A stretch of DNA of 55,449 nucleotides from Runella sp. (GTDB lineage: Bacteria > Bacteroidota > Bacteroidia > Cytophagales > Spirosomataceae), in NCBI GenBank assembly GCA_023254175.1, contig JALQYJ010000118.1, positions 1 through 55,449 on the forward strand, read 5' to 3'. Shown piece by piece: positions 38,276 to 54,513 of this stretch. The first letter of the stretch is position 1. Each line of letters begins with the position of its first letter. The notes under the pieces were generated by a model that was not told the DNA's origin, made no database searches, and saw nothing but the letters and a program-made list of their open reading frames with translations. The translations under genes and the position numbers were made by a program.

Positions 38276-39235
38276 TTAATATCTGAAACGGGGTGTGCGT
38301 ACAGGCATTGCTTTACGCTTTACAAACGGGGGCAAAGCATACGATAGCATCATTTCAAAGGAGGCAGGTGCTTTGCTCGTTCGGCCAAATCCTGTCAAAT
38401 CTACAGCTCCACCTAACCTAAAGGATTGCCAATTAACGCCAGCGAATAAATTGATAGATTCTTGTAAGCGGTAGGTAATACCTCCAAAAAACCAGTCGTT
38501 CCACGTTGCCATTGCTCCGCCTTCTACGGAAAAAGTTTTTGAGCTAAAACTAACGGGGGTTTTTAAAAGTACCATCGGTTGAACGATTAGACCGTAGATG
38601 GGTTCAAAACGATAGCCCGCAGTTAAATAAGCGCTGGGCTCTAAAGCATTTTGAGCATCTCCACTAAGACTAAATTGTGGACGATTAAGGTGATTAATAC
38701 TCGCGCCGACATAAAAAGTTGTGGCATCGTAAAAAGCACCAAGGGCAATATCAGGCTGGCTTTGCCCTAATCGTCCAGTGGGGATAAGGGGATCGCCAGG
38801 GTCACGAAAAATTAATTTATTAAAATCAATATATCTATTTTGAAAACCTACCCGAGCCCCTAAGGCCAAGGTATTGTCGTTTAAATTCATTTTGTAGGCA
38901 TAAGACAGTTGTACTTCTTGACTACCCATGGCTCCGAGCCTATCGTTTACGTAATTCACACCAACGGCGCTTTTAATAAAATTGAGTGGAATACTTCCTG
39001 TAAACATGAGCGTATTGGGGGCACCCCCTTCTCCACTAGAAGTTTGATAACCTTGCCATTGCATACGGTTGATGAGCTGAAAACGGGTTGTTCCGTCTTC
39101 TCCAGCCGTTGCGGGGTTGAAGTAAAGTTGGCTCAAAGGAAACAGCGTAAACTGAGCGTCTTGTTGGGCGTGCGAGATAGTAGAATGACCTAACCAGCCT
39201 ATGATACTTAATAAAAGTAGCCGTGGGTATTTCAT
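38276..39235 (-). CDS. PorP/SprF family type IX secretion outer-membrane protein
   Basis: A 319-residue outer-membrane beta-barrel of the PorP/SprF family, which anchors type IX components or secreted adhesins to the outer membrane. The signal peptide is MKYPRLLLLSIIGWLGHSTISHAQ. Diagnostic segments are QDAQFTLFPLSQLYFNPATAG, AVGVNYVNDRLGAMGSQEVQ and SYAYKMNLNDNTLALGARVG. It lies next to gldK, the synteny expected for this family. The ATG at 39235 begins the signal peptide. The hemD terminator at 39290-39317 separates it from the genes upstream, so it starts its own transcript. Confidence 0.92.
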   Translation of the reverse strand: MKYPRLLLLSIIGWLGHSTISHAQQDAQFTLFPLSQLYFNPATAGEDGTTRFQLINRMQWQGYQTSSGEGGAPNTLMFTGSIPLNFIKSAVGVNYVNDRLGAMGSQEVQLSYAYKMNLNDNTLALGARVGFQNRYIDFNKLIFRDPGDPLIPTGRLGQSQPDIALGAFYDATTFYVGASINHLNRPQFSLSGDAQNALEPSAYLTAGYRFEPIYGLIVQPMVLLKTPVSFSSKTFSVEGGAMATWNDWFFGGITYRLQESINLFAGVNWQSFRLGGAVDLTGFGRTSKAPASFEMMLSYALPPFVKRKAMPVRTPRFRY

Positions 39236-51182: not shown

Positions 51183-51818
51183 ATGCAAATAGATAAAGAA
51201 TTTCTTTACTCCCGTTTTAATGGCTTGTTTGAATTAAACCTACTCAAAGAACTTGCTCAAGTGGGCACATACATGGAAATCGAAGAAGGCCATGTATTGA
51301 TGCGCCCTGGGGCTTATATTCGAAGTGTGCCTATTATTTTGAGTGGCTCTATCAAAATTTTGCGCTCCGATTCCGATGGCCGAGATGCATTATTGTACTA
51401 TCTAGGAGGGATGGATTCGTGCGCTATGTCATTGACCTGTTGTTTGAATCGTCGCCAAAGTGAGATTACGGCCGTGGCAGAAGAAAAAACTAAGTTGATT
51501 TCAATCCCCGTTGAAAAAGTGGAAGAATGGGTGACAAAATATGCTTCATGGAAACAATTTGTGTTTGCCACTTACCAAAAACGATTCGACGATTTGTTAG
51601 GAGCCATCGACCAAATTGCTTTCCGCAAGCTTGACGAGCGCCTTTTGAGTTTATTGCAACGCAAGTCAAAACAATGTGGTTGCAGTGTATTTACAGTAAC
51701 ACACGAAGAAATTGCGGGTGAATTGGCCACGTCGCGGGAGGTGATTTCGCGTTTGCTTAAGCAGCTTGAAAAATTAGGAAGAGTCAAACTTTCACGAAAT
51801 AAAATCGAATTAATATAA
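51183..51818 (+). CDS. Cysteine-rich Crp/Fnr-family transcriptional regulator
   Basis: A 211-residue Crp/Fnr regulator. The N-terminal cyclic-nucleotide-binding-like beta barrel contains VLMRPGAYIRSVPIILSGSI. The C-terminal winged helix-turn-helix is at about 172-205, with EEIAGELATSREVISRLLKQ. The effector pocket lacks the cAMP-binding Arg-Ser pattern. Instead it has cysteines at 80, 86 and 87 (SCAMSLTCCLNRR) and 165 and 167 (KQCGCS). These could sense oxidants, metals or persulfides by thiol chemistry or hold a cluster. GTGA-N6-TCAC palindromes stand before the next two genes and are likely its operators. Confidence 0.9.
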   Translation: MQIDKEFLYSRFNGLFELNLLKELAQVGTYMEIEEGHVLMRPGAYIRSVPIILSGSIKILRSDSDGRDALLYYLGGMDSCAMSLTCCLNRRQSEITAVAEEKTKLISIPVEKVEEWVTKYASWKQFVFATYQKRFDDLLGAIDQIAFRKLDERLLSLLQRKSKQCGCSVFTVTHEEIAGELATSREVISRLLKQLEKLGRVKLSRNKIELI

Positions 51819-51831
51819 AAAAAGAGGCTTT

Positions 51832-51845
51832 GTGATAATTATCAC
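51832..51845. promoter_or_regulatory. Crp-type operator before the TauE gene
   Basis: GTGATAATTATCAC is a perfect 14-bp palindrome of the Crp form GTGA-N6-TCAC. It is centred 29.5 bp before TACTTTTG (51868-51875), a -7 element of the Bacteroidota form. A matching operator stands before the CstB-like gene at the same distance. It lies 13 bp after the regulator gene, so local autoregulated control is plausible. Confidence 0.7.
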
Positions 51846-51867
51846 TTACTAGCGGTAAGCGTCAATT

Positions 51868-51875
51868 TACTTTTG
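51868..51875 (+). promoter_or_regulatory. -7 promoter element of the TauE gene
   Basis: TACTTTTG fits the Bacteroidota -7 consensus TAnnTTTG. The region where a -33 box should lie (51845-51848) does not read TTTG and touches the operator, as expected for an activator-dependent promoter. Confidence 0.55.
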
Positions 51876-51903
51876 CAACATCATTCAATCCCTCTGCAAG
51901 AGT

Positions 51904-52710
51904 ATGAGCACGTTAGAAATTTTCGGTTTTGGAGCCTCTATTTTGATTGGCGTTAGTCTTGGCCTCATTGGTGGTGGCGGTAGCATTCTCACCCTTCCTG
52001 TTTTAGTGTATCTTCTTCATCTTAACCCAGTTACCTCAACGGCCTATTCGTTGTTTATTGTAGGGTCAACGTCGTTAGTAGGGTCATTTACGTACATGCG
52101 TAAGGAATTAGTGAATTACCGTGCTGCGATTGTTTTTGCGATTCCGTCGTTTATCGCTGTTTATCTTACTCGGAAGTATTTGGTGCCTGCCATTCCAAGT
52201 TCTTTGTTTACAGTAGGTGGTTTTGAAGTGACCAAAAACATCGCCATTATGGTATTCTTTGCGCTTGTGATGTTGGCAGCTTCTTTTTCAATGATTAATG
52301 ATAAAAAAGCAACAAAGGCCGATGGCACAGAAGCTCTGAAGTTTAACTATCCGATGATTGCGCTCGAGGGAGGTGTAGTAGGAATTTTGACAGGAATAGT
52401 TGGTGCAGGTGGTGGCTTTTTAATTATTCCTGCCTTGGTGTTACTAGCACGTTTGCCCATGAAAATGGCCGTCGGAACGTCATTACTCATTATTGCTGCA
52501 AAATCCCTCATAGGTTTCGTAGGTGACATGTCAAATATGCAAGTTGATTGGCCATTTTTGTTCGAATTTACAGCCTTGTCAGTGGTAGGTATCTTTGTCG
52601 GAACCTATATGTCAAAATACATCCCAGGACAGAAACTTAAAAAGTCCTTTGGTTGGTTTGTATTGGTAATGGGGGTGTATATCATTGTTAAAGAACTCAT
52701 TTTTAGCTAA
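51904..52710 (+). CDS. TauE/SafE family anion exporter
   Basis: A 268-residue membrane transporter of the TauE/SafE (sulfite/organosulfonate exporter) family with about eight helices. The two half repeats show GLIGGGGSILTLPVLVYLLH and GIVGAGGGFLIIPALVLLAR, which are the family signatures. MAVGTSLLIIAAKSLIGFVG completes the second repeat. Exporters in this family move sulfite, sulfoacetate or thiosulfate-like anions. It stands between a Crp/Fnr regulator and a CstB-like persulfide dioxygenase, so export of sulfite or thiosulfate made by the latter is the natural inference. Confidence 0.92.
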   Translation: MSTLEIFGFGASILIGVSLGLIGGGGSILTLPVLVYLLHLNPVTSTAYSLFIVGSTSLVGSFTYMRKELVNYRAAIVFAIPSFIAVYLTRKYLVPAIPSSLFTVGGFEVTKNIAIMVFFALVMLAASFSMINDKKATKADGTEALKFNYPMIALEGGVVGILTGIVGAGGGFLIIPALVLLARLPMKMAVGTSLLIIAAKSLIGFVGDMSNMQVDWPFLFEFTALSVVGIFVGTYMSKYIPGQKLKKSFGWFVLVMGVYIIVKELIFS

Positions 52711-52724
52711 AAAAAGTGGTTTGT

Positions 52725-52738
52725 GTGACCAATGTCAC
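52725..52738. promoter_or_regulatory. Crp-type operator before the CstB-like gene
   Basis: GTGACCAATGTCAC again has the form GTGA-N6-TCAC, with GTGAC/GTCAC arms. It is centred 29.5 bp before the -7-like GAACTTTA (52761-52768), exactly the spacing seen for the TauE gene. It lies 15 bp after the TauE stop codon, so the dioxygenase gene can be transcribed from its own promoter. Confidence 0.7.
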
Positions 52739-52798
52739 GCTTAAAGCCCATTGAATTCCCGAACTTTACATTACAAAACATAACATTCTCAAAAGCAC

Positions 52799-54217
52799 AT
52801 GAAAATCGAACAAATTTATACGGGCTGTCTTGCCCAAGGTGCCTATTATATCGAAAGCGAAGGCGAAGTAGCCGTGATTGATCCACTTCGCGAAGTGACG
52901 CCGTATATTGAGCGTGCAGCCAAAGATGGGGCAAAAATCAAATACGTTTTCGAAACTCACTTCCACGCCGATTTTGTGTCTGGTCACTTGGATTTGTCTC
53001 AAAAAACAGGCGCCCCTATTATCTACGGTCCCAATGCAAAAACGGGTTTTGATGCGCACATAGCTACTGATGGGGAAGAGTTCCAGCTCGGGAAAGTGAA
53101 ATTTAAAGTATTGCATACTCCTGGGCATACGATGGAATCAACTTGCTATTTGCTGATAGATGAAAACGGCCAAGAAAAAGCATTGTTTAGCGGAGATACG
53201 CTTTTTATTGGAGACGTAGGTCGCCCTGATTTAGCTCAAAAGTCAGACTTGACTATCAATGACTTAGCAGGGCATTTGTACGACTCACTTCGTAACAAAG
53301 TAATGACCTTACCCGACGACGTGGTGGTTTACCCTGCGCATGGTGCAGGTTCGGCTTGCGGTAAAAACATGAGTAAAGAAACAACGGATTTGCTTGGTAA
53401 CCAGAAGAAATTTAATTACGCTCTTCGTGCCAACATGACGAAAGAGGAGTTTATTGAAGAAGTAACAAACGGGTTGTCTAAACCTCCTCAATATTTTCCT
53501 CAAAACGTTAAAATGAACAAAGAAGGCTACGAAAGTATTGATCTAGTGATGGAGCGCGGTGCCCAAGCATTGAGTGCCGTAGCGTTTGAGGTGGCTGCCA
53601 ACGAAACGGGAGCGGTTATTCTGGATACACGCGGAGCTCAAACTTTTAACAAAGGTTTTATTCCAAATTCTATCAATATTGGCCTAAAAGGCGATTTTGC
53701 TCCTTGGGTGGGGGCACTGGTGCCTGATGTGAAGCAAGAAATTTTGTTAGTAACTGAGGCCGGTCAAGAAGAAGAAGCCATTTTGCGTTTGGCACGCGTT
53801 GGGTACGATAACGTGATTGGTTATCTCGATGGCGGTATTGAAACGTGGGTAGCATCAGGACAGGAAGTGGATACAATAACCTCTATTACTCCCGACGAAC
53901 TTGCGGATAAAATGGCAGAGGAAAAAGTGTTGGTCATTGATGTGCGTCGTCCTGGAGAGTTTTCAGCTGAGCATATCGACGGAGCCAAAAGCTTACCCTT
54001 GGATTATATCAGTGAGTTGATGGCCGAGTTTCCTAAAGAGCAAACCATGTACATTCACTGCGCGGGTGGGTACCGTTCGATGATTGCCTCGTCGATTCTC
54101 AAGTCACGTGGGTTTGATAACCTCGTTGATGTGGCGGGAGGCTTTACGGCTATTGCACAATCAGGACGATTTACGTTGACTGATTACGTATGCCCAAGCA
54201 CCTTGAAAAAATCGTAG
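52799..54217 (+). CDS. CstB-like persulfide dioxygenase-pseudorhodanese-rhodanese fusion
   Basis: A 472-residue enzyme. An N-terminal metallo-beta-lactamase persulfide dioxygenase domain (ETHE1/Blh type) has FETHFHADFVSGH (52-63; the sixth metal-motif His is replaced by Phe59, as in CstB), HTPGHT and LFSGDTLFIGDVGRPD. A pseudorhodanese domain follows, lacking Cys at the active position (LLVTEAGQEEEA, Thr319). A C-terminal rhodanese domain has catalytic Cys421 in HCAGGYRSM. This three-part order is that of staphylococcal CstB, which oxidises low-molecular-weight persulfide and releases thiosulfate. A Crp-type operator lies upstream and a TauE exporter precedes it. Confidence 0.93.
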   Translation: MKIEQIYTGCLAQGAYYIESEGEVAVIDPLREVTPYIERAAKDGAKIKYVFETHFHADFVSGHLDLSQKTGAPIIYGPNAKTGFDAHIATDGEEFQLGKVKFKVLHTPGHTMESTCYLLIDENGQEKALFSGDTLFIGDVGRPDLAQKSDLTINDLAGHLYDSLRNKVMTLPDDVVVYPAHGAGSACGKNMSKETTDLLGNQKKFNYALRANMTKEEFIEEVTNGLSKPPQYFPQNVKMNKEGYESIDLVMERGAQALSAVAFEVAANETGAVILDTRGAQTFNKGFIPNSINIGLKGDFAPWVGALVPDVKQEILLVTEAGQEEEAILRLARVGYDNVIGYLDGGIETWVASGQEVDTITSITPDELADKMAEEKVLVIDVRRPGEFSAEHIDGAKSLPLDYISELMAEFPKEQTMYIHCAGGYRSMIASSILKSRGFDNLVDVAGGFTAIAQSGRFTLTDYVCPSTLKKS

Positions 54218-54227
54218 TTAAACTGGT

Positions 54228-54446
54228 ATGAAAAAAACGCTTGATAATTGGCAACTCTGGTTGATGGTAAGTTTAACCTTAGGGTTAGCTCCTTTTTTCC
54301 CTGAACCACACATTGTAGGAAAGGTTCGGTGGATAGTGGGAGGGGCAGTAGGTATGAAAGCGATAGATTGGTTTGATTTTCTACTGCACGGAACACCCTG
54401 GTTACTTTTTATCCGAGCATTGATAGTAAAAAAAGTTAGAAATTAA
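54228..54446 (+). CDS. Small two-helix membrane protein in the sulfur operon
   Basis: A 72-residue protein with two hydrophobic helices (WQLWLMVSLTLGLAPFF and IDWFDFLLHGTPWLLFI-containing region). It begins 10 bp after the CstB-like gene and is followed by a terminator, so it belongs to the same transcript. It is not a rhodanese or a known sulfurtransferase. From memory, short membrane proteins of this kind are often found beside persulfide dioxygenases in Bacteroidota, but the role is unknown. Confidence 0.7.
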   Translation: MKKTLDNWQLWLMVSLTLGLAPFFPEPHIVGKVRWIVGGAVGMKAIDWFDFLLHGTPWLLFIRALIVKKVRN

Positions 54447-54471: not shown

Positions 54472-54513
54472 ACCCAGCATTGCTAGCCGTGTAGGCAGTA
54501 GTGCTGGGGTTTT
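54472..54513 (+). terminator. Terminator of the sulfur operon
   Basis: ACCCAGCATTGCT (54472-54484) pairs with AGTAGTGCTGGGGT (54497-54510) over about ten base pairs with small bulges. A short T-run follows (TTTTG). It lies 25 bp after the small membrane protein gene. Confidence 0.65.

Follow-up and report, generated by a model that had tools for sequence, protein, structure and literature searches.

One described system for reactive sulfur is the staphylococcal cst operon, which comprises CstR, CstA, CstB, SQR and TauE (in part PMC7315123). Comparable duties are known to be performed elsewhere by regulators unrelated to the Crp family. Two reviews ascribe a response to sulfane sulfur to FisR, SqrR/BigR, CstR, CsoR, OxyR, MarR-family proteins and others; the regulators of sulfide and persulfide named there include members of the CsoR, ArsR, MarR, OxyR and sigma-54 activator families, AdpA and LasR are also modified, and the term Crp is found in the available text of neither review. 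In A. baumannii, Crp becomes persulfidated when cells are treated with sulfide (PMC7315123). The literature searched, which does not cover most subscription papers, describes no Crp-type protein as controlling operons of the CstB or YeeE/dioxygenase kind. Here we describe a locus in a 55,449-nucleotide stretch of DNA (the window) from a relative of Runella, whose Crp protein shares 95% identity with its counterparts in R. limosa and R. defluvii. Judged from sequence, a cysteine-bearing Crp-family protein appears to switch on genes for reactive-sulfur removal, both here and in many relatives.

The core of the locus lies on the plus strand. The gene crp (51183-51818) encodes a Crp/Fnr-family regulator of 211 amino acids with a cNMP-binding domain and a Crp-type helix-turn-helix, both above cut-off (PF00027, 1.6e-9; PF13545, 1.3e-9), tauE (51904-52710) a TauE/SafE family exporter of 268 amino acids (PF01925, 5.5e-43), and cstB (52799-54217) a CstB-like protein of 472 amino acids. 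Residues 3-452 of the last align with PDB 3tp9 (1.1e-72) and 3r2u (3.7e-60). Its Pfam domains give, in one chain, a metallo-beta-lactamase dioxygenase, a cysteine-less middle domain of rhodanese type (a pseudorhodanese) and a rhodanese with C421 in the loop; the motif residues H54, H56, D58, H110, D133 and H181 are present, and the predicted protein has the architecture of a CstB. The first-pass annotation of this DNA had assigned the three genes in this order and had put a Crp-type protein in the position of CstR. Both assignments hold, the second through the Pfam matches; none of the five proteins encoded in or next to the locus has a CsoR-type Pfam match. Neither CstA nor SQR is among the four genes of the locus.

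There are exactly two perfect copies of GTGA-N6-TCAC in the 55-kb window, in the short gaps 5' of tauE and cstB, at the places pointed out earlier. The first, GTGATAATTATCAC (51832-51845, plus strand), is the predicted Crp site of the tauE promoter and is followed by a -7 box, TACTTTTG (51868-51875), that matches 6/6 specified bases. The second, GTGACCAATGTCAC (52725-52738), is the predicted site of the cstB promoter and is conserved across Bacteroidota; the -7-like box after it, GAACTTTA (52761-52768), is weak and matches 4/6. This palindrome and both boxes are likewise on the plus strand. The distance from palindrome centre to first box base is 29.5 bp in both, again as first described. The accompanying claim, that identical spacing at two promoters is improbable by chance, is weaker than it was put if it stands alone, with a second box of 4/6, and within the window alone the spacing is no more than suggestive; conservation in relatives gives it support.

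The genome to which the window belongs (4.85 Mb) contains 38 GTGA-N6-TCAC sites, compared with 43 for the reversed control pattern. Abundance was accordingly rejected as evidence, and the signal is carried by placement and context. A second cstB on another contig of this genome (C37:6124-7542), a 65% identical copy, is preceded by GTGAGAGATGTTAC and then TACTTTTG at the spacing seen in the window, and the exact palindrome with the same spacing is also found 5' of tauE in loci L035, L036, L045 and L068. When the remaining 36 palindromes of the genome were checked with their flanks, only one, intergenic on contig C39, had a 5/6 box at that spacing. This site (39162-39175, minus strand) is identical over 14 bases to the cstB site, has the box CACTTTTG, and lies after ars-like genes; behind it come a frame of 32 codons and a gene whose product carries a c-haem motif (CxxCH). 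Loci L274 and L275 have similar sites.

Eighty loci with a related Crp were collected from named genomes, partly by means of a peptide pattern that includes C80 of the Crp. Over their 918 kb there are 30 perfect palindromes, compared with 5 for the reversed control, and on the crp strand xAnnTTTG begins exactly 22 nt after the palindrome in 24 of the 30. The box stands at 22 nt behind 37 one-mismatch palindromes, with 0-3 at any other spacing on that strand, and behind 36 two-mismatch palindromes; on the minus strand no palindrome has a box at 22 nt. At least one element, with no more than two mismatches in all, is present in 61/80 loci. Aligned, the 101 sites give the extended consensus TGTRAY-N4-RTYACA, in which the scan itself selects for eight columns of the palindrome core and six of the box, but not for the flanking T and A or for the C/T and A/G columns. 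Two smaller features of the same scan stand apart. A second spacing peak of 27 two-mismatch sites at 41 nt was discarded, since most of it comes from a stretch that Flavobacteriaceae have in common some 90 nt inside the cstB coding sequence. On the minus strand, near-palindromes are slightly over-represented at 44 nt ahead of xAnnTTTG (7 with one mismatch, 15 with two).

The genes behind these elements are mostly sulfane-sulfur genes. The gene next to the 101 elements is CstB or a lone rhodanese 48 times, YeeE 25, TauE 10, crp 2, another gene 14 and none 2, and the 14 other genes include those for thioredoxin, rhodanese, peroxiredoxin and c-type cytochrome, as read from translations. Counted by gene, with the same limit of two mismatches, the element stands 5' of 38/53 full-length CstB genes (at least 50% identity), 25/47 YeeE and 10/52 TauE. 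In Flavobacteriaceae such as L069, two YeeE genes are followed directly by TauE, which would then share the YeeE promoter. In many Bacteroidota the crp gene has tauE/cstB beside it, or else yeeE or rhodanese genes, and the orders crp-tauE-cstB and crp-yeeE-tauE-cstB recur in Cytophagales and Flavobacteriales. In six loci (L039, L045, L047, L048, L050 and L052) the CstB adjoining tauE is divergent, at 32-34% identity to that of the window. In L047 (8503) and L052 (10159) the element precedes a gene for a two-haem cytochrome c that resembles thiosulfate dehydrogenases.

A separately drawn sample of 296 Bacteroidota genomes was then considered, with Crp defined by a profile match of E ≤1e-40 and CstB by E ≤1e-100. 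Crp is present in 106 genomes, CstB in 71 and both in 60, so defined; 60/71 CstB genomes have the Crp, compared with 46/225 genomes without CstB, and 39/96 CstB places are within 10 kb of it. The 300 bp upstream were examined at 70 of the 96 places, including one in each of the 11 CstB genomes that lack this Crp. With the spacing fixed at 22 nt, 42/70 score at least 14/16 and 23/70 score 16, whereas dinucleotide shuffles (50 rounds) give a mean of 0.08/70 and never more than 2; at any other spacing between 10 and 35, 0-5/70 reach a score of 14 and none reaches 16. Conservation of the palindromes at orthologous promoters had been set in advance as one of the checks that could refute the earlier interpretation, and it did not refute it: the element is conserved, with its fixed spacing, across Bacteroidota. 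The element is present at 40/59 places in genomes with the Crp and at 2/11 in those lacking it (Fisher 0.005, uncorrected for relatedness). Split by linkage, it is found at 24/31 places within 10 kb of crp and at 16/28 unlinked places.

Position -41.5 is that of a class II activator of the Crp type. In flavobacteria the sigma-A box TAnnTTTG occupies -12 to -5 (PMC9723704), which, with the fixed distance of 29.5 bp, would put the palindrome centre at -41.5. A Crp dimer would there occupy the site of a -33 element, none being visible among the 101 aligned sites, and would recruit RNA polymerase through class II contacts. Spacing fixed to the base pair points to contact with the polymerase and so to a probable activator, in contrast to CstR and BigR, which repress. 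This role, read from site geometry, is our addition to the first-pass annotation, whose interpretation is otherwise supported overall. We propose that persulfide or polysulfide reacts with cysteines 80 and 86/87 and switches the Crp on; CstB, with its known conversion of persulfide to thiosulfate (PMC9774590), would remove the persulfide, and TauE, judging from its family, would export the product. Control of these genes by the Crp is strongly supported by comparison between genomes, and persulfide as the inducing signal, acting through the cysteines, is what we infer. Taken as a whole, a Crp/Fnr-family class II activator, switched by persulfide or polysulfide and controlling a reactive-sulfur detoxification regulon, is the best explanation and in our judgement a probable one.

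In cAMP-dependent CRP, a Glu and an Arg of the phosphate-binding cassette bind cAMP. The window Crp does not keep the Glu, the Gly-Glu pair of 3h3u aligning to A81-M82. R91 holds the Arg position but varies among 12 relatives. Its only cysteines are at 80, 86, 87, 165 and 167, of which C80, C86 and C87 lie in this cassette, the region where Crp binds cAMP. Among 81 related proteins C80 is present in 81, C86 in 80 and C87 in 78, the search pattern favouring C80. The recognition helix reads TSREVISR, with R185, S189 and R190 each present in 81/81 rows. Covariation between residue 186 and half-site base 3 ran in the expected direction (E rows, G 57 and A 33; V rows, G 45, A 60 and other 7) but is confounded by phylogeny and was not used. 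In a set found without the C80 pattern C80 is nonetheless in 45/45 rows, including paralogues at 32-37% identity, and was therefore rejected as a marker of sulfur linkage. The second cysteine is more informative: CstB, TauE or YeeE matches lie near 13/17 two-cysteine rows and 6/19 one-cysteine rows (p = 0.01), and those six include two lone rhodaneses, two CstB genes cut at the end of the stretch and one locus shared with a two-cysteine gene. The one-cysteine paralogues often stand ahead of rhodanese genes or of DUF2892-like genes, the latter named from translations. An element within 250 bp 3' of crp accompanies 9/19 one-cysteine and 6/17 two-cysteine rows.

The alternative that survives best would let the same Crp regulate these genes but sense oxygen, nitric oxide, disulfide stress or a pocket ligand, the sulfur genes being part of a wider redox response. 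It would fit that C80 is kept even where no sulfur neighbour of a paralogue was found, as would the peroxiredoxin and thioredoxin genes behind some sites and the varied signals sensed by Crp-family proteins elsewhere (PMC12937710). The targets, however, are mostly sulfane-sulfur genes, the second cysteine tracks linkage to CstB, TauE or YeeE, and there is no FNR-type N-terminal cysteine cluster in the window Crp, whose first cysteine is residue 80. We regard another signal as unlikely.

A repressor of the CstR or BigR kind, released by persulfide, could also be imagined, since a site spanning -48 to -35 could block the polymerase. The lack of a visible -33 element in the sites speaks against this, and spacing fixed to the base pair fits polymerase contact and not blocking, which is an argument and not a test; we think repression improbable. 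That another Crp paralogue binds the palindromes, leaving the adjoining crp a bystander, is also doubtful, to about the same degree. One-cysteine paralogues do have elements of equal form and spacing, and a first look gave 6 candidate stretches in the window's own genome and 0-20 in others, only some of them Crp proteins; on the other side, presence of the element tracks presence of this Crp clade, and the recurring gene orders keep crp at the head of the set. Chance palindromes before an operon that is unregulated or otherwise controlled, which the chance frequency of the bare palindrome in the genome and the poor second box might have suggested, are already contradicted by the fixed-spacing conservation (42/70 against a shuffle mean of 0.08/70), and we give them almost no weight.

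Several observations weigh against a persulfide-switched Crp activator as the general explanation. No element is found at two mismatches in 19/80 loci, and it is missing or weak in 28/70 cstB upstreams of the genome sample. Five of the 14 other genes behind elements (L044, L049, L059, L079 and L104) have no evident sulfur role. At a score of at least 15 the difference between unlinked places and genomes without the Crp is 12/28 to 1/11 (p = 0.06), and the sampled genomes are related, so that counts are not independent. Two genomes that lack this Crp, G229 and G287, carry a variant element at their cstB promoters. As to the cysteines, paralogues L281-L286 keep C80, while CstB, TauE, YeeE, rhodanese and the element were all unfound in the stretches fetched for them; C80 need not, then, be the sensor residue. 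Likewise, the one-cysteine paralogues beside sulfur genes (6/19) or with the element (9/19) imply that C86 is not strictly needed. The variant of G229 and G287 (L211 and L214) is of an ATGATG type with the same spacing, and perhaps serves another Crp paralogue.

Distant relatives of the Crp also occur outside Bacteroidota. Plasmid records were searched at the protein level and 32 of them contain a relative; 19 regions were read, and 14 of these (L287-L289, L292, L293 and L296-L304) are annotated proteobacterial ones (Paracoccus, Ruegeria, Thioclava, Chelativorans, Pseudosulfitobacter, Azospirillum and Thiothrix). All 14 have C80 and C86. In 12 the crp gene has a DUF2892 or YgaP-like gene behind it (once with two other genes intervening), and the annotation lists YeeE/YedE in 7 and an MBL-fold gene in 10. 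In 13 of the 14 the interval from crp to the following member of this set contains GTRA-N5-TYAC, and in none the N6 form; for Bacteroidota CstB upstreams the corresponding figures are 2/70 for N5 and 30/70 for N6. Such neighbour genes were not found for the relatives in Pusillibacter (Bacillota) and Persicobacter. In a tree, the proteobacterial rows and L295 stand apart from the Bacteroidota rows, with several long branches, and no origin was drawn from it. These loci point tentatively to a cross-phylum branch of Crp/Fnr proteins with cassette cysteines, class II activators that would sense persulfide through C80 and C86 and run sulfane-sulfur operons: CstB/TauE/YeeE/rhodanese with a 14-bp site in Bacteroidota, DUF2892/YeeE/dioxygenase with a 13-bp site in Proteobacteria. 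We rate this broader proposal as possible, a little short of evenly balanced.

The window locus is completed by a gene for a 72-amino acid protein (54228-54446, plus strand), 10 bp downstream of cstB, with relatives in loci L036 and L039. It had been described as a small membrane protein; the gene is there, but a simple 19-residue hydropathy window gives no membrane span, and at 0.001 the protein matches nothing in Pfam or NCBIfam. The terminator reported after the set is probably a strong hairpin with a U-rich tail (54473-54508, plus strand; -27.1 kcal/mol, z -3.39), which a simple terminator scan did not list.

If the proposal is correct, a Crp-type activator would be a new sensor fold for reactive-sulfur genes in Bacteroidota, its regulon would be predictable from a simple DNA rule, and the protein would offer a clean test of cysteine chemistry replacing cAMP in a Crp protein. 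Compared with the staphylococcal cst operon, the locus likewise has the CstB architecture (3r2u) beside a TauE-type exporter, but the regulator there is a CsoR-type repressor and here a Crp/Fnr-type protein, a predicted activator at -41.5. BigR/SqrR operons have target genes like those of the relatives (YeeE/YedE, dioxygenase) and cysteine-based sensing (PMC7315123 and PMC12170894); these repressors are of the ArsR family, unrelated to Crp, whereas here crp fronts the similar genes. PDB 3dv8, the only PDB match of a 47-row Crp profile at 1e-15, is a Crp/Fnr-family protein in which cysteines are found at the equivalents of C80 and C86; its molecule name gives no function and no result here ties it to sulfur. 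FisR is likewise a sulfide-responsive activator (PMC12170894), acting with sigma-54, whereas the Crp-type protein is a predicted activator at promoters with a primary-sigma box. With the class II promoters of E. coli CRP the sites have in common the GTGA/TCAC half-site and, as predicted here, the -41.5 centre; they differ in that here the cassette Glu is lost, cysteines lie in the cassette, and the promoter has the -7 box of Bacteroidota in place of a -10.

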